64,000 bases of DNA, from NCBI RefSeq assembly GCF_002083135.2, contig NZ_NBTM02000001.1, positions 1,860,001 to 1,924,000 on the forward strand, written 5' to 3'. A model generated the notes under the pieces. That model was not told the DNA's origin. It searched no databases and saw only the letters and a program-made list of their open reading frames with translations. How positions within the stretch are numbered: position 1 is the stretch's first letter; each line of letters opens with the position of its first letter. The DNA comes from Aerococcus viridans. GTDB lineage: Bacteria > Bacillota > Bacilli > Lactobacillales > Aerococcaceae. Made by a program: the position numbers and the translations under genes. Below are positions 51,451-64,000 of this stretch, in pieces.

Positions 51451-52115
51451 TTATATCTGGTTTTTTTCTAGGTAAAAGTGCTTTTTGGCCTCGGGCCAGG
51501 TTAAGTTAGACAAGTCACTCTCATGGTTTTTTAAGAAATTTTCCACCCAAGTTTGGTTGGTTTTCGCATAATCACGCAAAATCCAACCCATCCCCTTATT
51601 GATGAAATAGTATCTGTTTGCCCCTTCATCCCCAGTTGATGGATCATTGAAGTCCGCTTCAACCAGACATTGTCAGATAAGCTCCACGCCGCCATTTCCG
51701 ACTTCAAATCAGGATTCTTATGGACTAAATAACCGATTGTTTTAACCAAGGCATCCACCGAATCCCACCACGATTTTTGGACAATCAATGTTTTTAATCT
51801 GGGTAAATCATCCGGCTGCAAATATTTCTTCATTTCTTTCAAATAATCACAAACAATATATTGAAATTCTCTTTCGGAAAATGACCAAAATTCGTCAACA
51901 AAAGCCCAGTCAATGATTGCTTGATTAGGATTTTCCATGAAGCGCAACTTTGCTTCTGCTTTCGCTTCCTTTAGGTAGGGTTTAAAAATATCCCGGCGCG
52001 TTTGGCTTTTGATACCAAGAAATGGAAACTGGTTACGTTGGTACTTGGCCATCGGTTCAGCATCATCGCTTGCATGATCATACATTTCTTCAATTAAGTA
52101 CTGCCAATTCACCAT
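51451..52115 (-). pseudogene. DNA alkylation repair protein (AlkD-like), frameshifted
   Basis: HEAT-repeat DNA glycosylase family that removes alkylated purines. The first about 168 codons read well (FPFLGIKSQTRRDIFKPYLK, FSEREFQYIVCDYL, SWWDSVDALVKTIGYLV, LSDNVWLKRTSMIHQL). After KGQTD the frame shifts. The expected end, YYFINKGMGWILRDYAKTN and onward, continues in another frame to a TAA at 51451-51453. About 18 residues normally found between these two parts seem to be missing, so a small deletion not divisible by three is likely. The in-frame product would be 194 residues with an unrelated tail. Confidence 0.8.
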
Positions 52116-53073: not shown

Positions 53074-53202
53074 CCGTAAACCTCCTAATATATTTCACTT
53101 CTCTATCTCAAATTATAGCCTATATGATGAGATGAAGATAACTCTAATTGAAAAATTAGCTCAATTTAGCATTATATATGATGCATCAATTTACTATATA
53201 AA

Positions 53203-53232
53203 GAAAAAAGCCCTCAAATGAGAATTTGAGGA
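53203..53232 (-). terminator. terminator facing left, orphaned by the IS
   Basis: CCTCAAAT (53212-53219) pairs with ATTTGAGG (53224-53231); on the minus strand GCTTTTTTC follows. No minus-strand gene lies immediately to its right except the IS and, beyond it, the YobI-like gene, whose end at 55202 is only 29 bases from the IS. It may be that operon's original terminator. The remaining sequence to 53363 holds only a weak GGGG/CCCC hairpin. Confidence 0.65.
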
Positions 53233-53492
53233 CTTCCTTGATATATTGATGGAGTTGAGGGGGCTCATCTGAACCCCTTCACATCAACGTTTATAGTTAT
53301 ATAGTAATGGTTTATACTAAATTTTCACGCATACGCCTATGTTTTATGATTGTAAGTTTTACTGGTTCTATAATAAATAGTGTTGGTGAGAATTCATATT
53401 GAATCTCATTGACACTATTTTTGTGTACGCAAAAAGGACATGATATCCTTAATGCGTGTAAACCACTACGAATACAGAAAGAAGGGAAAATC

Positions 53493-54833
53493 ATGTCCCA
53501 TACATCTATTATAAAACAACTTTGCGGTATTTACGACAATAATATTGATATTACAATACCAAAATCTATGCATCTGTTGCCACTTGAAAAGTATCATGAA
53601 ATAAATCATTTCGTTTTACATGGGGTTCTTACGTACAAGCCTAAGGCTTGTATGCACTGTGGTGTAAAGAATACTGGTAATCGAGATATCATCAAACATG
53701 GCTTTAAACCAGCTATCATTCGATTACCGAACACAGCTACTAATCCTGTTTTACTTAAATTACAGAAGCAACGCTTTTATTGTAAACATTGTGCACAAAC
53801 TTTTATCGCTGAAACACCATTAGTTGAAAAATTTTGCTGTATTTCTAAAACCATTAAAAGTCAAATTAGCTCCGAATTGGTTGAAACGCAATCTATGCGG
53901 TTAATCGCTAAACGTTATCATGTCTCTTCTCCAACAGTGGCCAGAACTTTAATGAAAGCAAGTATGGGACTATCACCTAAGGGAAATTATCTCCCGAATC
54001 ACCTCGGTGTAGATGAGTTTAAATCGACTAATCGTGTAGCCAATGCGATGAGTGCTGTCCTTGTGGACACGCATAATAGAAGGCTAATTGATATTGTCGT
54101 TGATAGAAAACAAGCGTCGCTCATCGATTACTTTTCTTCTTTTACCTGGACTGCTCGAAGCAGCGTGAAGACAGTTTCGATTGATTTATATACACCTTAT
54201 CTAGAGGTCATCCGCACATGTTTCCCTAATGCGAAGATTGTCGTTGATCGATTCCATATAGTAAAGCTGTTGAATGAAACAATCAATTCTATTCGTATTA
54301 AAGTGATGAATGCTATCAAAACAAGCCGTCCATCGGACTACAATAAACTCAAAAAACAATGGAAATTGTTGTTAAAGAACGCTGAAGATTTAAATTTCAC
54401 GGATACACATTATGTTCGTCAATTTGGTGAAGCGATATCAGAACAACGTATTGTTGATTATCTTTTGAGTATCTCACACGAACTTTTAGTTACTTATACC
54501 CTGATGAATGAACTAAAATATGCCATTTCAACTCATGATATCAATATTTTCAATGAAATCCTACGTGGGACTAAGAACCAAACTTTGCCAAGTCGTACGA
54601 GAAGAACTATCAGAACATTAGCCAAATTCTTGCCTTATATACATAACGCTTTAAAATATACTGTATCAAATGGTCCTACCGAAGGTATTAATAATAAAAT
54701 TAAATTAATTAAACGAACAGGTTTTGGATATTCGAACTTCCATCATTTACGTGCAAGAATTTTAGTCCAATTCAAATTAAATTACAAACCATCCAATCCT
54801 AAACCTTATACATTTGATGGGATGGCAAGCTAA
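53493..54833 (+). CDS. ISL3-family transposase
   Basis: 446 residues from the ATG at 53493, preceded by AGAAAGAAGGG; an in-frame codon at 53409 lies further up and lacks a ribosome-binding site. N-terminal zinc-finger elements (CMHCGVKN and FYCKHCAQTF) are followed by a helix-turn-helix (MRLIAKRYHVSSPTVARTL). The DDE catalytic core carries GVDEFK, VDRFHIVKLLN and, near the end, SNGPTEGINNKIKLIKRTGFGY, the hallmarks of the ISL3 group. The frame is intact, so the element may be active. Confidence 0.94.
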   Translation: MSHTSIIKQLCGIYDNNIDITIPKSMHLLPLEKYHEINHFVLHGVLTYKPKACMHCGVKNTGNRDIIKHGFKPAIIRLPNTATNPVLLKLQKQRFYCKHCAQTFIAETPLVEKFCCISKTIKSQISSELVETQSMRLIAKRYHVSSPTVARTLMKASMGLSPKGNYLPNHLGVDEFKSTNRVANAMSAVLVDTHNRRLIDIVVDRKQASLIDYFSSFTWTARSSVKTVSIDLYTPYLEVIRTCFPNAKIVVDRFHIVKLLNETINSIRIKVMNAIKTSRPSDYNKLKKQWKLLLKNAEDLNFTDTHYVRQFGEAISEQRIVDYLLSISHELLVTYTLMNELKYAISTHDINIFNEILRGTKNQTLPSRTRRTIRTLAKFLPYIHNALKYTVSNGPTEGINNKIKLIKRTGFGYSNFHHLRARILVQFKLNYKPSNPKPYTFDGMAS

Positions 54834-54873
54834 CCCAGGGATAGTGGTATATTTTTGAATAAAGAGGACTGAA

Positions 54874-54982
54874 AGTGTACGTCCTTAGCCGTGAACAAGC
54901 ATGAAATCGAGACTAAGGCTCGATTTCAAAGCAGAGAGACCTTGGCTCTCGCTGGTGCCACGGCTTTTAAGGAACGTACACT
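54874..54982. other. three-way-junction palindrome inside the IS
   Basis: An outer stem pairs 54874-54893 with 54959-54982 (AGTGTACGT, CCTTA and GCCGTG with their complements, a few extra bases on one side). It encloses two hairpins: 54903-54911 with 54919-54927 (GAAATCGAG, 7-base loop) and 54930-54938 with 54946-54953 (AGC-GAGAG with CTCTCGCT, 7-base loop). The whole folds into a cloverleaf-like shape of 109 bases. It is not needed for a transposase gene and not protein coding. It may be a structured RNA, a nested mobile structure or a folding signal. Confidence 0.7.
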
Positions 54983-55201
54983 GAAGGACAAAACACCATT
55001 TGTTAGAAATGTTATCCCATTGGTCACTTCCCTTGCCTAAAGGCAAGAAAAAAGCCAAACACATCACAGCGTGCATGGCATTTAACTTTATTGATTTCTT
55101 AATTATTATTAAAAACTAAAAAACGTATTCGTGTGCTTTAAAATTATTTACCAACACTATTTGTAAAAGAACCGTTTTACTAGATAATATATTTATATAC
55201 T

Positions 55202-58200
55202 TCAATAAGATGTAGATTTTAAGTGGTGTAACTCTTCAAATTTAGTCGGTCTAAAATTTAATCTATTATCTTTCCCAATAGTCACTACTTCAGTTTTTTC
55301 TAATGTTCGTGCTACTCTATCCTCAGCTTCATTTTCAACTTTAGGTCTACCGTTTTCAAATACTTTGGATATTCTACTGATAGATCCTATTGATTTTATC
55401 CACTCTTTCCATTTATACATATGAGTTCTGTCTTCTATAATTTTTTTTAGAAGCTCAATTTTTAATGTCTCTTTTAAATTCTCATCTCTTATTAGTTTAT
55501 CAAGAAACTCTTCAGACATTTTATTAGATATTAGCTCACTCCACGCATTTGACTCTAAATTAATTTTAGAAATAATTTCTTCCCATAAATCAAACTCTTT
55601 AAAACCCTCTATTATTTTTTGATAATCTGAGGGTAAGAAATAATTTTCTAGTACATGTTTTCTTACTTGATTACCAGCATTATTTATCTTAAAGAGGGAA
55701 ATTTTCTTATCATATTGATCTATAAGTTTTATACTATCACTATCTTCTAAAACATTCATGTTTAGTACATTCTCAACTACGACTTCAGATAATTCCTCAA
55801 AAATGTCACTATCCATAATTAATAATAAAGCTTCTTCAGAAGCAATTTCTTTACTTAAAACCGCAAAGTATTTAACAATTAAATTATCGTCATTTGTATC
55901 AAGTAATGTTACTAAATTCTGCTTGTTAAATTTAATTAAGTTATTTGATAAAAGAATCATATATTTCTCTAAGTTTAAATCAGAGTTAATTAATTCAATT
56001 TGGCTACTGACCTCTTCAGAAATTGATTTAAATAGATTAATTTCAGTTTCTACACAATTCAAAAGGTCTTTATACATCTCTTGGCTCAAAGAAAATTCTA
56101 CTTCATAATTATCATTTATAAAGTTTATTATAGGAGAGACCTCTCCACATCTTTCATAGTAATTATTAAGATTATTTTGATTGTAGTTGACCAAATTATT
56201 GTTAAACAATTCAATTAACAACTTGTCATCTTCAACATAATTTATGTCACTAATGATAGATCTTTCAATACCTATAAATTTTCTTTTAGTTTCTGTTTCC
56301 AAGTCCGAATTTAGAATGCTTTTAAATACTTTTTCTCCAGAAAAAGCATAAACATCACTATTCTTTATTTTTACTATATACTCATTAATTAACTCATCTA
56401 AATTTTCCTCTACATATTTTTTTAATTCAAATAATGATTTGCTATCTAAATATTTAAAAAACCTACTTAAAATATCACTTTTTGATTTGTTAGTCGTAAT
56501 TCCAGATCTATAGATTATATTTATTACATTTTCTAAATTAATAGCAATTAGTCGTTTTTTAATTAAAATTTTAGTGATATTTGAAGATATCTCTAAATCG
56601 GAAACATCATTAAATTTAATCTTTATTCTATCTAATCCCTCTAATATTGCTTCTTTATCTTCAAAAAAATCCAACTCCATTATCTTACTATTATTTGCCA
56701 TATATTTATTAAAATCTGTATTTGATTCAATGTTTTTATACTCACATGCAATTCCTGCAAATTTTAATTTAAGATCAGATGATATAGAACCTGCATTAAA
56801 GACCTCATAAAAACTATTAAACCCTATCTTTAATAATATATCTACTAAATTTTTAAGCTTGTCATAATCATAACCATTTATATATTCAATTGCTTCAATA
56901 TCGTTTGTTGATACAATAACGCTAAAAATATCTATTATTTCTTTTCCTTTTTGTTTTTCAATTAATTCATCCATTAGGTCATAATTTACGATATCTTTCC
57001 TTAGGTAGTCTTTTTCTTCAAAATATTCTGTCACAGTTTCAGGGTTATTTAGTTTGAAATCATTTTTAATCTCTTTACCCGACAGTACTCTATTAATAAA
57101 TGTATTATCATTTTTCCCCAAAGAACCTTTGTGAAAATATCCTTTGTATCTCCAATAATTTTCATCAACTAGTCCTGATAATAATAAGAATCTTATCAAG
57201 GAATAATAATGATTATTTATAACTTGTTTATACTCTTCTTTGCTCTCATAAAAATACTTGCTTAATCCTTCTTCATTTAATTCAGAAAGAAGTTCACTTG
57301 TTTTAGCAGTATGCCTTCTACCTAGTTCTTCATTTAGTTTATCTATTTCATTATCTAAACTTTTTATCTTAAGATCTAGATTTTCATAATTAATTTGCTC
57401 TAATCTCTCTTTCAGACTAGAATCTCTTTTTCCTAACTCTTCTATAAAGGTATTAAATGTATAATTTTTACCAGTACTACCATAATATATAAGTCTACTT
57501 GCTTCTTTATTCCGATACCAATTATACATCAACTTTCCAGTTGACTCATTGACATTAAAATTGTAACCTTTTGGAATATTAACAGATAAAAAATCCGAAA
57601 CTCTAGTTATTAACTGATTTTTTAGCTCCTCGCGTTCTGTTATTTTTTCTTTGAATGATTCTTCATATTTAACGATTAAAGTATCTCTTTTATTTAAAAC
57701 TTCATATAAATATCCTTTATCGTATTCTAAATCTTCAAATTCCTTTGGGAATACATTTTTTAGTACTATTAAGGCAAAAAGCTCATTAGCGTAAACATCT
57801 GTTTCTATACTTTTTGAATAGATTTCGTATTCATTTCTAATAGAATATAAAAGCCTCATATCATCAATATATATTGATATTTGTTCTAATATTTTAGGAT
57901 TTAATTTTAATTTATCATCTTCAATATCAGAAAAAATTTCTAATACTTTCCCTCGGGAATTATAAGAAGTAACTGCTGGTATGATTGGAATCATCAAATC
58001 GAAAAATTTTGTTCGATCTTTTGATTCAAACAAATCATCTCTGATTACATAAATGAATCGTACAATTTCACTAGATTTAGCATTTACGAGACTATTAATT
58101 TCTCTAAGTCTAATAAATATAGATATATTTTTAAATCTATCTAAATCCTCAAAAATTATCGTATTCACATCAGATGCAAGAATTAGATACACAATTTCTT

Positions 58201-58855
58201 GTGCTTCTAAATCCAATACTTCAGCAGCATCATAATCCATCAATTCAGACTCAGCCCCTTTAAAATTAAATCTCGTAAATTTTAAAGATATCCTTCTTGA
58301 TAGCCATACTGCAGCTATAGATAATGAAATTAATAAAAAGATTAGAATTGATGAGTTAGACCATAAAATGACTTTCTCTACTTGTATTAAATCAGAGTAG
58401 AAATAGTCTAGTAAATCCCTATTAAATAGAGAGTATAATCCAATAGCAAACATGCATAAACATGCCGCGAAAAATAATACTTGCCACCATTTTCGCTTAT
58501 CTTTAACTCTAAACTTGCTCAATGGAATCTTATGAGAAGGTATTTGGTATAATATTTGGTTTATAACTTGACGTTCCGCAATCTTGATTTTATTAGATGA
58601 ATCACCGTTATTTTCAAAGTCTGCAATTGCAACATTTATAATATTTCCCTTCTTAAACTCAATTTTTTTATTAAAATATGTTTTAAGAAAACTACTTTTA
58701 CCAGAACCATATATCCCTGTTATCGCTATGTTTTTAACATCTTCTTCTAAATAAGCCTCATCTAATGCTTTTTTTGATATTTTATAAGAAGGATGTTTTG
58801 TATCAACAAGCCTTGGGGTTAGTCTATGGAATTTAAAAGCCTCTATTTTTAACAT
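55202..58855 (-). CDS. YobI/KAP-like membrane P-loop ATPase
   Basis: 1217 residues. Walker A GIYGSGKSSF lies at 47-56, two membrane segments follow at about 125-144 and 168-186, and Walker B is IIFEDLDRF at 233-241. A membrane insert between Walker A and B and the EDLDR motif are the layout of KAP-type NTPases and Bacillus YobI. The remaining about 950 residues are helical and Leu/Ile/Asn/Lys-rich, as in STAND-like sensor proteins. Base composition is visibly more AT-rich (many AAT, ATA, AAA codons) than the core genes, suggesting transfer. AGGAGGAAGAA precedes the ATG. It lies about 80 bases downstream of the DUF4268 gene. Anti-phage function is inferred from context. Confidence 0.8.
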   Translation of the reverse strand: MLKIEAFKFHRLTPRLVDTKHPSYKISKKALDEAYLEEDVKNIAITGIYGSGKSSFLKTYFNKKIEFKKGNIINVAIADFENNGDSSNKIKIAERQVINQILYQIPSHKIPLSKFRVKDKRKWWQVLFFAACLCMFAIGLYSLFNRDLLDYFYSDLIQVEKVILWSNSSILIFLLISLSIAAVWLSRRISLKFTRFNFKGAESELMDYDAAEVLDLEAQEIVYLILASDVNTIIFEDLDRFKNISIFIRLREINSLVNAKSSEIVRFIYVIRDDLFESKDRTKFFDLMIPIIPAVTSYNSRGKVLEIFSDIEDDKLKLNPKILEQISIYIDDMRLLYSIRNEYEIYSKSIETDVYANELFALIVLKNVFPKEFEDLEYDKGYLYEVLNKRDTLIVKYEESFKEKITEREELKNQLITRVSDFLSVNIPKGYNFNVNESTGKLMYNWYRNKEASRLIYYGSTGKNYTFNTFIEELGKRDSSLKERLEQINYENLDLKIKSLDNEIDKLNEELGRRHTAKTSELLSELNEEGLSKYFYESKEEYKQVINNHYYSLIRFLLLSGLVDENYWRYKGYFHKGSLGKNDNTFINRVLSGKEIKNDFKLNNPETVTEYFEEKDYLRKDIVNYDLMDELIEKQKGKEIIDIFSVIVSTNDIEAIEYINGYDYDKLKNLVDILLKIGFNSFYEVFNAGSISSDLKLKFAGIACEYKNIESNTDFNKYMANNSKIMELDFFEDKEAILEGLDRIKIKFNDVSDLEISSNITKILIKKRLIAINLENVINIIYRSGITTNKSKSDILSRFFKYLDSKSLFELKKYVEENLDELINEYIVKIKNSDVYAFSGEKVFKSILNSDLETETKRKFIGIERSIISDINYVEDDKLLIELFNNNLVNYNQNNLNNYYERCGEVSPIINFINDNYEVEFSLSQEMYKDLLNCVETEINLFKSISEEVSSQIELINSDLNLEKYMILLSNNLIKFNKQNLVTLLDTNDDNLIVKYFAVLSKEIASEEALLLIMDSDIFEELSEVVVENVLNMNVLEDSDSIKLIDQYDKKISLFKINNAGNQVRKHVLENYFLPSDYQKIIEGFKEFDLWEEIISKINLESNAWSELISNKMSEEFLDKLIRDENLKETLKIELLKKIIEDRTHMYKWKEWIKSIGSISRISKVFENGRPKVENEAEDRVARTLEKTEVVTIGKDNRLNFRPTKFEELHHLKSTSY

Positions 58856-58936
58856 TTCTTCCTCCTTTTCTTACAGTGCTTTTTTTAAAAAACTGGACTT
58901 AATCGCCGAAGTCGTCATCGTATTGTTTAACTAAAA

Positions 58937-59890
58937 TTAATTCATAGCTAAATACTTTTTGAAAATACTCCGCATTGCAATTACTCTTGAAATTACTTCA
59001 TCCATTAACTCATGATAATTTGTCTGATTATCGAAATCTAAATCTTCAATTTTTGTAATGATTCTACTTGCTTTTTTATTATCTAATCTTTGCCAGTCCA
59101 ATGAAAATAGCAACTGTCTTTCTATCTCATCTCTTTCAGTAAATAATTCATCAAAAACCTCTTTGTTGTCTCTGATATATAATTCTACACCAATATATCC
59201 ACCTTTATTAACTAGTGTAATACTAATATGTGCTTCGCTTGTACCAATAGAAACATCATACCAATGATCTATGGAAGCTTTTCTAGTATTGAATGGTTTA
59301 CCTTTCTTAGTAACTACATCATTAAATTTTGTCCAGAAATTTAATCGTTCGGCCTGGGATCGATTCATCTCAATATCAGATTTTATTGACTTAGTACTCT
59401 TTATGAAATCATTAGGTTTTTCTATAATTTCAAATTTTGGTGCTGGTAAAGAATTACCTATTCTATATGCGTGAAGTTCAATTAAGAAAAAATTTATCTC
59501 CGTTACCATGTTATTATTCAACCATTCAATCGCACTTCTATGTTCTTCTCTAGCATTCTTGACTATCCAAATAATAACTTCTGCATCTAAACCAGAGGCA
59601 TAGGTAATTATCTTACCTAAGTGATCATGATTTGAGTCCTCTAGTTGATTCTCAATAATAACTTTTGTATCTGTAGGCTCATCAATTGCTACTAAATCAC
59701 AACGATATGCACCAACATAAGCTTCTTTTTCAATATCTGTGAGAGTTAATCCAACAATATTATTAAGTTCTTCTATATTTTCTGATTTTGAAAGCCAGTT
59801 AGAAAAGTCATACTGTTCGTGTTCCCAAAGATCTCTAATATCTACTTCAATTAATTTTCCAATTGTCATTAACATTTTACCTACTTTCAT
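58937..59890 (-). CDS. DUF4268 protein, PD-(D/E)XK nuclease-like
   Basis: Up to 317 residues; the real start may be the ATG at 59875 or 59869, since only those have an AGG upstream. The N-terminal half (GAYRCDLVAID, then VIIENQLEDSNHDHLGKIITYASG) has the Asp...Glu-x-Gln pattern of a PD-(D/E)XK fold in which Lys is replaced by Gln; putative ligands are Asp65 and Glu80. The C-terminal half with FWTKFNDVV and HWYDVSIG is the DUF4268 domain often found next to restriction genes. It precedes the YobI-like ATPase. Nuclease activity is a prediction. Confidence 0.8.
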   Translation of the reverse strand: MKVGKMLMTIGKLIEVDIRDLWEHEQYDFSNWLSKSENIEELNNIVGLTLTDIEKEAYVGAYRCDLVAIDEPTDTKVIIENQLEDSNHDHLGKIITYASGLDAEVIIWIVKNAREEHRSAIEWLNNNMVTEINFFLIELHAYRIGNSLPAPKFEIIEKPNDFIKSTKSIKSDIEMNRSQAERLNFWTKFNDVVTKKGKPFNTRKASIDHWYDVSIGTSEAHISITLVNKGGYIGVELYIRDNKEVFDELFTERDEIERQLLFSLDWQRLDNKKASRIITKIEDLDFDNQTNYHELMDEVISRVIAMRSIFKKYLAMN

Positions 59891-59910
59891 ATTTAATCTA
59901 ATTTTTAAGA

Positions 59911-59947
59911 AAACCCCATATCCTTCACTGGTGGATATGGGGGTTTA
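59911..59947 (-). terminator. hairpin between the helicase and DUF4268 genes
   Basis: CCCCATATCC pairs with GGATATGGGG (59911-59923 with 59933-59946, one extra G). On the minus strand the stem ends in GGGGTTTTCTT, a moderate terminator right after the helicase gene. It suggests partial separation of the two gene pairs. Confidence 0.65.
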
Positions 59948-59958
59948 GCTATACAGGA

Positions 59959-62900
59959 TCACTCAAACACTTCATCTAATTTTTCTTCTAATGTTCCATC
60001 TTCTGCATATGGATAAGCATCTAATTCTACAAAGTTCTTTTGGTTAATGCCTTCGGTCAATTCACTAAAGATAAAACTCGTCGCAATTCTGTAAATAATT
60101 TCTGTGGGAGCTAATCCATACACTTGGTTCTCTAGTATATGTTTTAGACGGTCATACTCATTAGGGTATTCTGACTTGATTACTTCACTGTTATACAACC
60201 TTTTAACAACTTCTGTGATGTATAAACCTGACTTCATATACAAATCAATAAAGGTCTTAGAGGAATCATCGTAAATACCTGGATTTTCATCTTCTAATTG
60301 TTGTACCATCTTTTGAACTACCCATTTAGGCGTATAAATTTGATTGGTATTTTGAGGTGGAATATAGTCATAAATATTCTCTTCGGTCTCTTCAAAGTAA
60401 TTTGATAACTCAGATTTCTTGCGTAAAAATTCAAGTAGAGATTCATTAAATACTACTTCGTTAAACAAGTTACCATTAAATTGTTGTTCTTCACCTTCAT
60501 CATCAACATACGTACCACCATCTCGTAAGAAAATAAACTCTTCTAATGTAACACCTGTAACATCATAAAATACTTCATCACTGACGTACTCATCAAAGTT
60601 CATTAAGTTTAAATCTTCATCGCCATAAGCCATAATGAAACTAGGTATCGCTCTAGAAAATCCACGTAAATTAGATCGAATATCATCTTCAACAGTATTC
60701 TTTTTCTTTTCTTCTTGTTTTACTTCATGTTCTTCAATGATTTCTGTAGTCGTTTCTAAAACTATTTCCTCTATTTTAGCTTTCAAATCACTATAGGTTT
60801 CTTCAATAAAGGTTTTGTTTTCTTCCTCAACTTTTTCAGGGTCTTCTAATGCACCGTCATCTTCTAATTGTGCTTTACGGTCTGCTTGACGTACTTTTAA
60901 CTCTGCTTCGAATGTTTCGGTTGCTTTATCGATCTTTTCTTTAGCAGCACGTTCCTTTTGCTTCCGTTGGTTAATAGTCAGCCCATACTCCGTGCGCATT
61001 TTATCAAAGCTTGGCTCTAATTCTTTGCTTAGGGCATCACTTAACTTTTCTCGAACTTGAATATTGGTTGTAAGACCTATGTCTGTAGGTTGAACAATCT
61101 CCTCGATTTCTTGTCTCTCGTAAATCTTGTCACCAAAAAGTCTGTCTCTTTTCTCTTCGACAACTTCATCTTCTACAAATGCATTTCCTTCTTCATCTAC
61201 GTTTAAATCTTTTACATCTTTCGAATCTACTTTATCTTTATCTGTCGTTAATTTACCCTGCTCTGTTTTTTCAAACTTATTGATAATATCTAAGGCCTTT
61301 TTAGATCGGAAAATACCAGCAATATTATTAAATAATAGGTTACTCATGAATCCACGACGAACAACCTCTCTTGATTTTATTCTTTTTGGTAAAGTCAGGA
61401 CTTGTTTTGCATCTAACTCAGTCATCTGACCGTCAGTATCTTCACCAATGACTGGAAAGAAATTTAGCAAACGCTTTATATTCTCTTCACGTTCCTCCAT
61501 TGTTCCACTTCCGCCGGAGGTTGAACTATTTAAATTATTCGCAAATTCATCAATAATATCCAAAGTTCTCTCAGGTGCAAAATCAAAAATGTAAGCATTT
61601 TGCTTTCGATAAGTTACTGGATTACCTTCAGCATCTCTATCCGACCATTTATGAGGATTTTGGGCACGAAATCCAGCTTGCATATAGAGTGCCGGTGACT
61701 TCACGTTGCTTAACATCAGAACACCAGACCACTCAGGGACGGTTACACCTGTTGTCAATTGGCCAACTGTTAGAGTAATCGTTTTGTCATTATTAGCGAT
61801 TGCATTTTTTACACGTTCTAATGCACTATTTCGACCGTCAACATTCTCTTCATCAACTTCTATCTCTTCTCCGTTAATCTGTTCGAGTCTTCCATCTCCA
61901 GCTACAGAAACAACTTCATAGTTTTCAAATACGGGGTGATTTCGTAAAATATTAGCAAGGGCTTTGGCACTGTCAACTCTATTCAACAACCATAAAGTAT
62001 GCTTTAATTCATTTCTTAATTCTGGAGTAGAAAATGGATATTTTTGATTACTTGTTAAAGAATCTAGCCAATTTAAGATATCTGCTTCATAAATTAAATT
62101 ACCCTTATCATCAGTAGCAAAAAATTCATTCAGATCAAAAGCATAATCCACATTCGTCTCTTCATCTAAATCTGCGCCTTGTTTAATTTGTTCAACAATC
62201 ATGTTCGACATTTGATATGTATACATATTTAAAGTAGGTAATTCTTCATATGGATTATGTTCATCAGTTTCGCTTTCATCCCAGTTCGCTTTAGCTTCTT
62301 GTTCATCCATATAAGACCAGTTAAATATTTGATTGGGTTCAAATTTGTCACTAGCAATTTGTTTAAATGGTGTTCCTGAAAGATGCAATATGTAGTCCGT
62401 TTGAATTCTATCTAAAGCAAACTCAGTTTTATTTGTATCTACAGCCTCATGAGCTTCATCAATGACTACTAAATCCCAAGGTAACTGTTTAACCCAACGC
62501 AACTTCGGAATATTTCCTCCAAAAAATTCAGAACCTTTCAAATCTTGTAAACTTACAAAGGCAATTTGAGCTGGATTATCAGAGTCTATCACTTTGTCCA
62601 AATAATCTTCGCGACTTAATATATCCCTATTTGAAATCGCAGGACTATCACTTACAAAATAGTAAGTATGTTCTTTATCATACTTAATAAATTTCTCGTA
62701 ATCATCCACCCATGAATTTCCGACTGCTGGTCTATTTGTTAATATTAAAACATTTGAAAATTCCATTTCTTTAATCAAATCGTAAGTAGTTAAAGTTTTT
62801 CCAAATCTTGGTTTAGCATTCCACAAAAACTCCCCTGACTCACGACTTTTGAAATATCCAGCAGTCATTTCAACAGCTTCTCTTTGTTCTTGTCTTAAAA

Positions 62901-63285
62901 CGTAACTCTCAGATTGTATAGAATCTTCTAACTCATGAATGTCTTCTTTTAACATAAATGCAGAAAACATTCTCTTTGATTTACTTACATCATTCTCAAA
63001 ATCAAACCACTCAGTACCGCTCTCTCTAGGAATACCTTTACGAACCAAGTAAGCATGGAAATCATGATCATTGAAATAATAACCATCATTAAACCGTGCG
63101 ACATAGTCCCACAATTTTTCAGGAGTTATACCTGCCGTATGGGTTTGTTCACGAATACGTCTATCCACGTCTCTCTCTGTGTAACCAATTTTAAACCAGC
63201 CCTGTTTCTCCAGGTTGCTTGGTGTTCGATAGGCATATATTTTTGGAATAATACGTGTCTTGGTATTAATATTCGGTGTTTGCAT
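59959..63285 (-). CDS. GIY-YIG nuclease / SF2 helicase / methyltransferase-half fusion
   Basis: With the ATG at 63285 (AAGGAGATGG upstream) it has 1108 residues. Residues 1-100 form a GIY-YIG/T5orf172-type domain (KIYAYRT, GWFKIGYTERDVDRRIREQ, HDFHAYL, TEWF). From about 130 an SF2 helicase follows: PRFGKTLTT (GKT 162-164), VVIDEAHE (DEAH 276-279), LSGTPF near 303, QAGFRAQNP as motif VI. A charged coiled region occupies roughly 650-850. The last 126 residues (IYTPKWVVQKMV, FIDLYMKSGLYITEVV, NQVYGLAPTEIIY) look like the SAM-binding half of an adenine methyltransferase in which the usual DPACGSG is replaced. No NPPY motif follows before the stop. One base separates it from the upstream methyltransferase gene, so both act together, probably as a restriction system. 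Confidence 0.85.
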   Translation of the reverse strand: MQTPNINTKTRIIPKIYAYRTPSNLEKQGWFKIGYTERDVDRRIREQTHTAGITPEKLWDYVARFNDGYYFNDHDFHAYLVRKGIPRESGTEWFDFENDVSKSKRMFSAFMLKEDIHELEDSIQSESYVLRQEQREAVEMTAGYFKSRESGEFLWNAKPRFGKTLTTYDLIKEMEFSNVLILTNRPAVGNSWVDDYEKFIKYDKEHTYYFVSDSPAISNRDILSREDYLDKVIDSDNPAQIAFVSLQDLKGSEFFGGNIPKLRWVKQLPWDLVVIDEAHEAVDTNKTEFALDRIQTDYILHLSGTPFKQIASDKFEPNQIFNWSYMDEQEAKANWDESETDEHNPYEELPTLNMYTYQMSNMIVEQIKQGADLDEETNVDYAFDLNEFFATDDKGNLIYEADILNWLDSLTSNQKYPFSTPELRNELKHTLWLLNRVDSAKALANILRNHPVFENYEVVSVAGDGRLEQINGEEIEVDEENVDGRNSALERVKNAIANNDKTITLTVGQLTTGVTVPEWSGVLMLSNVKSPALYMQAGFRAQNPHKWSDRDAEGNPVTYRKQNAYIFDFAPERTLDIIDEFANNLNSSTSGGSGTMEEREENIKRLLNFFPVIGEDTDGQMTELDAKQVLTLPKRIKSREVVRRGFMSNLLFNNIAGIFRSKKALDIINKFEKTEQGKLTTDKDKVDSKDVKDLNVDEEGNAFVEDEVVEEKRDRLFGDKIYERQEIEEIVQPTDIGLTTNIQVREKLSDALSKELEPSFDKMRTEYGLTINQRKQKERAAKEKIDKATETFEAELKVRQADRKAQLEDDGALEDPEKVEEENKTFIEETYSDLKAKIEEIVLETTTEIIEEHEVKQEEKKKNTVEDDIRSNLRGFSRAIPSFIMAYGDEDLNLMNFDEYVSDEVFYDVTGVTLEEFIFLRDGGTYVDDEGEEQQFNGNLFNEVVFNESLLEFLRKKSELSNYFEETEENIYDYIPPQNTNQIYTPKWVVQKMVQQLEDENPGIYDDSSKTFIDLYMKSGLYITEVVKRLYNSEVIKSEYPNEYDRLKHILENQVYGLAPTEIIYRIATSFIFSELTEGINQKNFVELDAYPYAEDGTLEEKLDEVFE

Positions 63286-63286
63286 A

Positions 63287-64000
63287 TTATTCCATCTCCT
63301 TAACAATGGTCTCAATGTAATTAATATCATCATTATCAAGATTATACTTTTTGTACAACTGACTATCTATATCAGAAATAGATCCCATCCAATCAATATC
63401 TGAATCTGATTGAAAGTTTTGAAGTGGTACATAGCTCCAAACATCTTTACGAGCATTATCAGGGGTAGCTTTTTTAACGCTTAACATTACTCTAGCAAAT
63501 TTACTTTTAATATATTTATTTAATGCTATAGCTTCATTTTCTGTGTCAAAATTCCCGAGAGTAATAAAGGTTTGAGTAGGTATCATATGTGGTTCGGCCA
63601 CAAAGGGTTCACTTAATGCCTCTCCGATAGCTCCTGTACCATTTGATTTAGCAACAAAGACTTTCCATTTTCCAATTGTTGGATGATCTTGAATATATTT
63701 TCTACGTATCCATTTAACTTTTCTTTTATGGTTTTGGCGACCAAGTATTCCAATAAAGTCCTTTAAATTCTTTGGATGTTCATCCAGAAATATATCAGAA
63801 AGTTTATCAAAAATATTTGATGTAATTGATAAGCGTTCAGATTTTTTAACCTTATTTTTCATCTCCGGGAAATCTTTATAAACCATATCTGACAGTCTAT
63901 AGCTACTACGATTATGATGAATTAAGTTGATAGATTTCTCCATTATTGATGATACTTTGCTAGTAATTTTCTCCAATTCTTTGCTGCGAATAAATACTTC
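63287..64000 (-). CDS. Eco57I-type methyltransferase, C-terminal recognition part (partial)
   Basis: The frame is open to the right edge, so the 5' part, including any NPPY motif, lies outside the window; the first in-frame TTG at 63976 is only an internal codon. What is seen (EVFIRSKELEKITSKV, then KWKVFVAKSNGTGAIG, TFITLGNFDTENEAIALNKY and KDVWSYVPLQNF to a stop at 63287) is the typical C-terminal target-recognition region of Eco57I-class adenine methyltransferases, about 237 residues. Its stop precedes the helicase start by one base: a tightly coupled pair. Confidence 0.8.
   Translation of the reverse strand, partial: EVFIRSKELEKITSKVSSIMEKSINLIHHNRSSYRLSDMVYKDFPEMKNKVKKSERLSITSNIFDKLSDIFLDEHPKNLKDFIGILGRQNHKRKVKWIRRKYIQDHPTIGKWKVFVAKSNGTGAIGEALSEPFVAEPHMIPTQTFITLGNFDTENEAIALNKYIKSKFARVMLSVKKATPDNARKDVWSYVPLQNFQSDSDIDWMGSISDIDSQLYKKYNLDNDDINYIETIVKEME

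Follow-up and report, generated by a model that had tools for sequence, protein, structure and literature searches.

The four minus-strand genes at 55202-64000 of a 64,000-nucleotide window of Aerococcus viridans (assembly GCF_002083135.2, contig NZ_NBTM02000001.1; G000:C1:1860001-1924000) encode, in order of transcription, an Eco57I-type methyltransferase, a GIY-YIG/superfamily 2 (SF2) helicase, a DUF4268 protein and a YobI-type ATPase. It is likely that they are part of a mobile island at a variable site beside the transfer-messenger RNA (tmRNA) gene, which collects independent anti-phage modules, here a three-gene ATP-dependent restriction-modification (R-M) cassette and a Tmn-type ATPase. 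The parts are mostly of known kinds, and the arrangement is new. An original prediction made from the window had named four co-oriented genes of these kinds in a horizontally acquired composite island. Both statements hold, the first by the open reading frames of the window and their Pfam profiles, the second by the AT-rich genes, an adjacent ISL3-family insertion sequence (IS) and the almost empty counterpart of the site in a close relative, G060. It had also likened the first two genes to a restriction system, which is right as to their R-M content but too narrow as a grouping, since the DUF4268 gene belongs to the same cassette.

A transferable three-gene cassette

The window ends inside the methyltransferase gene, so that 63287..64000 (minus strand) covers the C-terminal 237 residues, the target-recognition part. 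In the whole genome the complete gene encodes 638 residues and reaches 65203 in window numbering, and the full protein has the NPPY motif and matches Pfam Eco57I (1.3e-17) and PADLOC MTase_II (2.9e-68). The helicase gene (59959..63285, minus strand) encodes a GIY-YIG (T5orf172) nuclease domain, an SF2 helicase with the motifs PRFGKT, DEAH and SGTP, and a C-terminal methyltransferase-like lobe with DLYMKSGLYITE; its Pfam matches are ResIII (1.6e-12) and T5orf172 (1.9e-7). Its reading frame is 59959-63339, and the ATG at 63285 is the likelier start, as in the related locus L048. By these profiles and motifs, an SF2 motor, a nuclease domain and an N6-adenine methyltransferase, as expected of a helicase-type R-M system, stand together in one locus. 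The DUF4268 gene (58937..59890, minus strand) encodes 317 residues, for which the inner ATG of MTIGKL may be an alternative start, and matches Pfam DUF4268 (3.4e-33) and, over nearly its full length, the PADLOC profile PDC-S11 (9e-120, profile positions 3-309 of 313). The YobI-type gene (55202..58855, minus strand) encodes a KAP P-loop ATPase of 1217 residues (Pfam YobI-ATPase, 5.1e-93). The G+C content is 26-34% in the four genes versus 42% in the nearby fab genes.

The methyltransferase, helicase and DUF4268 genes recur in identical order in L048, a locus of genome G139 from another family of the same order, with identities of 68%, 92% and 83%, respectively. There the DUF4268 gene is followed by a NERD/UvrD-type gene and no YobI gene is present. 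At the DNA level (blastn), window positions 58950-65506 form a single 6.6-kb block with 85.1% identity to L048, which on the left stops 13 bp before the DUF4268 gene ends; on the right the block is broken by an IS1380 unit and the match resumes at 73019. Because the block ends in the last codons of the DUF4268 gene, with no YobI behind it, the methyltransferase, helicase and DUF4268 genes are a transferable unit and YobI lies outside it. Two further loci, L075 and L094, join GIY-YIG/helicase R-M genes with DUF4268.

A Tmn-type ATPase behind the cassette

The YobI-type protein matches the PADLOC profile of the defence system Tmn, PDLC02220, at 1.4e-54 (no curated cut-off is displayed for PADLOC). 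Its Walker A motif is at residues 47-54 and its Walker B motif at 233, with two hydrophobic, transmembrane stretches between them (about 126-144 and 168-186), an arrangement that agrees with the KAP-type NTPase with two transmembrane stretches inside the ATPase domain given for Tmn in passages of PMC11846954. Since all seven relatives tested (five genomic and two from viral contigs) match the same profile as the window protein (6.1e-60 to 2.7e-87), the YobI family is, as far as profiles tell, the named Tmn system. The original prediction had found no named defence system for a pair of this protein and DUF4268, and an unnamed YobI system is now ruled out by the Tmn profile matches. The likeness to Tmn (PDLC02220, PF20693) lies in the P-loop ATPase domain, whose Walker A and Walker B motifs are separated by two hydrophobic stretches, and in the relatives on prophage contigs that lack R-M matches. 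The window gene differs in its position behind an R-M cassette, and its protein in a C-terminal half that the profile leaves unmatched. Searches of PDB sequences with the helicase, methyltransferase and YobI proteins and with DUF4268 and YobI alignments yielded nothing usable; helicase and methyltransferase gave no PDB match at an E-value of 0.01.

None of 17 viral-contig loci has an R-M reference match near YobI, so the Tmn-type ATPase can stand alone. In six viral contigs of one type (L180, L181, L182, L185, L186 and L191) the YobI/Tmn relative occupies the same place behind the same small gene; its reading frame is broken in two in L191 and L185.

Among the 24 YobI loci from contigs of genome assemblies, some of which may be plasmids, R-M genes are direct same-strand neighbours of YobI in six. 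(L056, L178 and L179 hold truncated YobI frames; matches in G154, G160, G177 and G103, which are at contig ends, fragments or degenerate, were excluded.) The neighbours are of type I in L057, L176 and L207, the latter two from one genus, type ISP-like in L060, type III and downstream in L177, and in the window the cassette described above, with DUF4268 in between. Moreover, BREX or R-M-like genes lie within about 3-6 kb of YobI in L051, L055 and L058. The cluster in L176 reads HsdM-HsdS-YhcG/DUF1016 PDDEXK-HsdR-YobI, and its accessory PDDEXK gene is a parallel to DUF4268 at the window locus. HSDR_N gave 27 matches in 22 YobI-bearing genomes, two of them directly upstream of YobI.

Matches to YobI were also found in 630 plasmid records (467 from Escherichia), none covering 80% of the protein and with listed identities of 25-35%. 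Eight of these records were opened. In L199 the gene just upstream of YobI is annotated as a DNA cytosine methyltransferase, and a DEAD/DEAH helicase lies on the downstream side. In L204 a DEAD/DEAH helicase gene follows YobI after about 0.9 kb, and L200 has a Gabija-like pair nearby; the remaining five of the eight regions hold no annotated R-M or helicase gene. OLD-type matches occur near YobI in L184 and L200. Furthermore, at L161:1-3533 a Gabija-like pair (OLD-type ATPase and UvrD-type helicase, recognised by eye) stands directly behind a GIY-YIG/helicase R-M gene. A 2024 study is said to have reported synergy between Tmn and Gabija.

DUF4268 in the company of restriction systems

The neighbourhood of DUF4268 was surveyed for the best 80 of at least 483 confirmed relatives, 73 of which have at least 5 kb of flanking sequence on one side, and 45 on both sides. 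Since R-M genes were identified by their likeness to a small set of in-house references, the R-M counts are lower bounds. An R-M gene, mostly of type I, lies within 5 kb in 27 of the 80 loci, and the other 53 have no R-M reference match there; among the loci with 5 kb on both sides the figure is 16 of 45. In 17 of the 80 an R-M gene stands directly beside DUF4268 on the same strand, and 11 of these 17 DUF4268 genes are directly behind HsdR. YobI was found beside DUF4268 in none of the 80 loci, some of which have incomplete flanks. DUF4268 was found in GmrSD type IV enzymes in a 2015 study, in the passages of PMC4619093 that deal with it. Because of the R-M neighbours, the GIY-YIG loci L075 and L094 and the GmrSD fusions, DUF4268 is, on the evidence of its genomic context, an optional accessory of restriction systems. 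The window member differs from other PDC-S11 proteins in accompanying a GIY-YIG R-M system, since those near R-M genes are mostly with type I systems and elsewhere DUF4268 is fused to GmrSD, as in the same passages. The name PDC-S11 is used in PMC12813430, and the passages of the PADLOC paper that were consulted give no explanation of it.

In the N-terminal part, the motif D65...E80-N-Q82 consists of residues invariant in 52 of 52 aligned DUF4268 proteins, with Q in place of K compared with PD-(D/E)XK. By this motif only, the protein may be PD-(D/E)XK-like.

Modular architecture of the R-M enzyme

Comparison with relatives divides the enzyme into three modules. Module N, of about 300 residues, is the S-adenosylmethionine (SAM)-type lobe of the methyltransferase without NPPY; module P, of about 340 residues, comprises NPPY and target recognition; module H consists of GIY-YIG, the helicase and its own C-terminal lobe bearing D-L-Y/F-x-K-S-G, a motif present in the window and in nine of the ten relatives having an H module, the one from Arthrobacter deviating. 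The window, L048, L160 and L161 have the layout N-P and H. In Pediococcus (L169), Enterococcus (L173) and Paenisporosarcina (L170) the layout is N and H-P, where the small gene of L173 matches N weakly (3.8e-4) and that of L170 gives no blastp match. N, H and P are all separate in Lactiplantibacillus plantarum (L167) and Arthrobacter (L171), the first gene of the latter resembling the H lobe rather than N. They are likewise all separate, in the order N, P, H, in Bifidobacterium (L172), with an IS between N and P, and in Treponema (L168), where an unannotated frame that crosses the start of the record (L197:1-909) supplies module N. In the fused proteins the Pfam Eco57I profile runs across the end of H and the start of P, with profile positions 1-171 in L173 and L170 and only 69-171 in L169; in L167, where P stands alone, the match is limited to 73-171, and in the window protein it takes in 58-164, where N meets P.

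Apart from L048, the C-terminal lobe of H has 51-64% identity (Arthrobacter 41%) versus 43-48% for the rest of H, and this better conservation argues for a functional lobe. The methyltransferases of the window and L048, compared per 50 columns, are 84-96% identical in columns 1-300 (N) and 28-58% in columns 301-642 (P), which identifies P as a variable target-recognition region on this one pair; to judge from this alignment, P, the part that confers specificity, was either swapped or diverged rapidly between the two. The division of the DNA-marking enzyme into N, P and H is, at the level of sequence comparison, the most unusual feature of the locus. A literature search on GIY-YIG/helicase/methyltransferase R-M systems, outside of which most subscription journals lie, brought up, among the papers listed, none in which this layout was recognised.

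Several known systems come near to this enzyme. The PADLOC type IIG REase-MTase profile PDLC03626, a single fused profile, matches pieces of both window proteins (helicase 301-648 to profile 326-674, 2e-15; methyltransferase 294-637 to profile 1007-1359, 4.1e-25), but the matches are weak and partial, and the window has two genes in reversed order and a GIY-YIG domain. In type ISP enzymes (LlaGI, LlaBIII), according to PMC4666363, a nuclease, an SF2 helicase-like motor, a methyltransferase and target recognition also cooperate; these are, however, single chains with an Mrr nuclease, whereas in the window there are two chains, the nuclease is GIY-YIG and the motor bears an additional methyltransferase-like lobe. 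The two-chain layout and GIY-YIG at the nuclease position rule out a plain type ISP enzyme. Also near are plasmid Eco57I-methylase/DEAD-helicase genes of Enterococcus, Pediococcus, Lactiplantibacillus, Paenisporosarcina, Bifidobacterium, Arthrobacter and Treponema, which belong to the same GIY-YIG/helicase family (43-48% identity over about 950 residues, near-full-length tblastn matches) but have the module orders N/H-P, N/H/P or N/P/H. These come from 83 plasmid records matching the helicase, eight of which were opened, and in none of the eight regions was a DUF4268 match found.

We put forward a tentative idea, on balance rather doubtful, which has two parts: one NPPY/target-recognition module would serve between two SAM-binding-type lobes, the free N and the motor-end H, and would keep its function whether joined to one of them or on its own; and R-M cassettes of several types would repeatedly gain an adjacent Tmn-type ATPase as a second layer against modification-protected phages.

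The island and its insertion site

The cassette and YobI lie in the left 10.9 kb (53131..64000) of a 24.8-kb island, which extends over 53131-77907 in window numbering, between a nucleoside hydrolase gene and the tmRNA gene. Similarity to the G060 sequence extends as far as 53130 and begins again at 77908, adjacent to the tmRNA 3' end, and 0.73 kb stands in G060 where the window genome has 24.8 kb. The G+C content drops from about 40% to 25-35% starting at about 54 kb in the window, and an ISL3-family transposase gene (53409..54833, plus strand) marks the left end. Ten genomes of the genus were compared for the interval between fabK and the tmRNA gene. The two are at most 30 kb apart in the same orientation in five of them, where the interval measures about 28 kb (window genome, G000), 4.3 kb (G060), 1.3 kb (G181), 1.2 kb (G068) and 5.4 kb (G091); G083 and G249 have them far apart or only weakly matched, no fabK match was obtained in G174 and G274, and G278 is rearranged. 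As the interval ranges from 1.2 to 28 kb among five genomes of one genus, it is a variable site. The nearly empty site in G060 shows an insertion, and AT-richness, variable site and cargo agree with it, which supports horizontal acquisition of the island.

The island is larger than what is visible in the window. An insertion upstream of the R-M cassette (65505-72956 in window numbering, L003:2506-9957) consists of a pair of IS1380 copies that are 99.4% alike and flank a macrolide-phosphotransferase-like gene, an Msr-like ABC-F gene and an HAD gene, together a macrolide-resistance-like transposon; both resistance-like genes are under the curated cut-offs of the named resistance families, and the ABC-F gene is over the general cut-off. 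Beside the tmRNA gene lies an Avs2-like gene of 1400 residues (73296-77498 in window numbering, L003:10297-14499), which was not found in the nine other genomes of the genus searched. Its product matches PADLOC Avs2 across nearly its full length (9.2e-196) but fails the curated NCBIfam Avs2 cut-off (553.6 bits versus 1000). Inspection of the island's listed reading frames by eye revealed no integrase, and no clean integration-site repeat was found. A 15-bp repeat occurs at 53302 and 77816, and a degenerate look-alike of the tmRNA 3' end was seen by eye to the left of this repeat.

Around the site, some other differences were observed. In G278, which belongs to this genus, two oppositely oriented tmRNA matches, separated by about 18 kb, lie close to the same fab genes (L158, L159). 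A small gene named CsbD-like by eye lies at L154:7373-7615 in G060 and at 78382-78669 in window numbering, inverted and on the opposite side of the tmRNA gene, which points to a local inversion or duplication. The protein encoded at 51531-52115 of the window has 194 residues and its G060 counterpart 236, with a different C-terminal end.

Weighing the explanations

Several observations weigh against independent modules of the kinds proposed here. Searches of Pfam and PDB sequences gave no significant nuclease relative of DUF4268. Of 16 helicase loci picked independently of DUF4268 (eight genomes, the window included, and eight plasmid records; L162 and L166 are cut by contig ends), only the window has DUF4268. 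The Tmn profile covers only residues 7-603 of the YobI protein, the C-terminal half being unmatched, and orphan methyltransferase-like genes were seen by eye within about 5 kb of YobI in the viral loci L180 and L196. In the passages of PMC11846954 that describe escape from Tmn, deletion of the phage DNA-modification gene concerned gave no escape, which leaves sensing of modified DNA by Tmn no more than a possibility. Finally, helicase and DUF4268 genes may not share one transcript. Between them, at 59907..59942 (minus strand), stands a terminator-like hairpin, CCCCATATCC-9-GGATATGGGG, followed by TTTTCTT, which weakens the case for a single four-gene operon. Its folding z-score is -2.1 in the window, and an imperfect counterpart at the same place in L048 has -0.8; it is absent from a consensus terminator scan, which allows loops of at most 8 nucleotides, the hairpin loop having 9. 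DUF4268 and YobI may be expressed by read-through or from a start of their own.

Among the alternatives, a chance build-up in an insertion hotspot survives best and seems possible though rather unlikely. The modules would then share an address only, without any functional link, and in its favour are the range of the fabK-tmRNA interval, the unrelated Avs2-like gene and macrolide-resistance-like transposon in the same island, and the general clustering of defence genes. Against it, DUF4268 recurs right next to HsdR on the same strand, and YobI right next to R-M genes of several types, although for YobI this may still reflect the general clustering of defence genes, for which an N6_Mtase survey of the order was too unspecific to yield a background rate.

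It is unlikely that all four genes work as one integrated system, in which the R-M complex would sense phage DNA, DUF4268 would be an accessory nuclease and YobI the membrane effector. Co-orientation, short gaps, the parallel layout in L176 and the R-M neighbours of YobI at six of 24 genome loci are what one would expect of it. Yet every part also occurs without the others and the R-M type varies from case to case, all 17 viral YobI loci are without an R-M reference match, among the eight plasmid regions a DNA methyltransferase is annotated just upstream of YobI in one, and the hairpin separates helicase from DUF4268.

The separate DUF4268-YobI pair of the original prediction, a dedicated two-gene system of nuclease and membrane ATPase, is highly improbable: although the genes are adjacent on the same strand at 81 bp, with a good ribosome-binding site before YobI, and with the terminator-like hairpin lying ahead of DUF4268 rather than between the two, YobI accompanies DUF4268 at 0 of 80 loci and DUF4268 accompanies YobI at one of 24 genome loci (the window itself), and the L048 block stops at the DUF4268 gene. 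The neighbourhood comparison that the prediction had called for saw the pairing solely at the window locus. In a survey of 295 genomes of the order for the two proteins, 20 and 9 genomes passed the two cut-offs, and two hold both; the genes are side by side only in the window genome, and in G160 they are on different contigs, the YobI match being a fragment with stops. On these counts the pair was rejected.

Proposed working and significance

We thus prefer a mobile island of independent modules. Starting from what was observed directly, that is, gene content, domain make-up, cassette boundary, association counts and the nearly empty site, and from what is known of the protein families, the following working may be proposed. 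The N-P methyltransferase would mark adenine in its own asymmetric target, its C-terminal half providing target recognition. The helicase protein would probably dock via its C-terminal methyltransferase-like lobe onto this target-recognition part, translocate with ATP along unmodified DNA, and let GIY-YIG cut. DUF4268 would be an accessory, probably nuclease-like, adopted by several kinds of restriction systems. The Tmn-type ATPase would act separately at the membrane with its own infection trigger, stopping the infected cell or the phage, and beside an R-M system it could be a further line of defence against phages that evade restriction through DNA modification. This back-up role is attractive but unproven: it draws on the recurring R-M neighbours and on an escape from Tmn that was traced to a point mutation in a DNA-modification gene of the phage, as described in passages of PMC11846954, in which the mechanism of Tmn is termed unexplored.

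If the module reading were true, the relatives would provide naturally occurring methyltransferases, some split and some fused, that have one specificity module in common, and in which it could be tested how motor, nuclease and methyltransferase share one recognition domain and how swaps yield new specificities. DUF4268 keeps company with restriction systems, and Tmn-type ATPases can stand alone and yet are found repeatedly beside R-M genes. For these two defence proteins, both poorly understood, the association counts indicate where to look, and they make Tmn as a back-up against modified phage DNA a concrete hypothesis.

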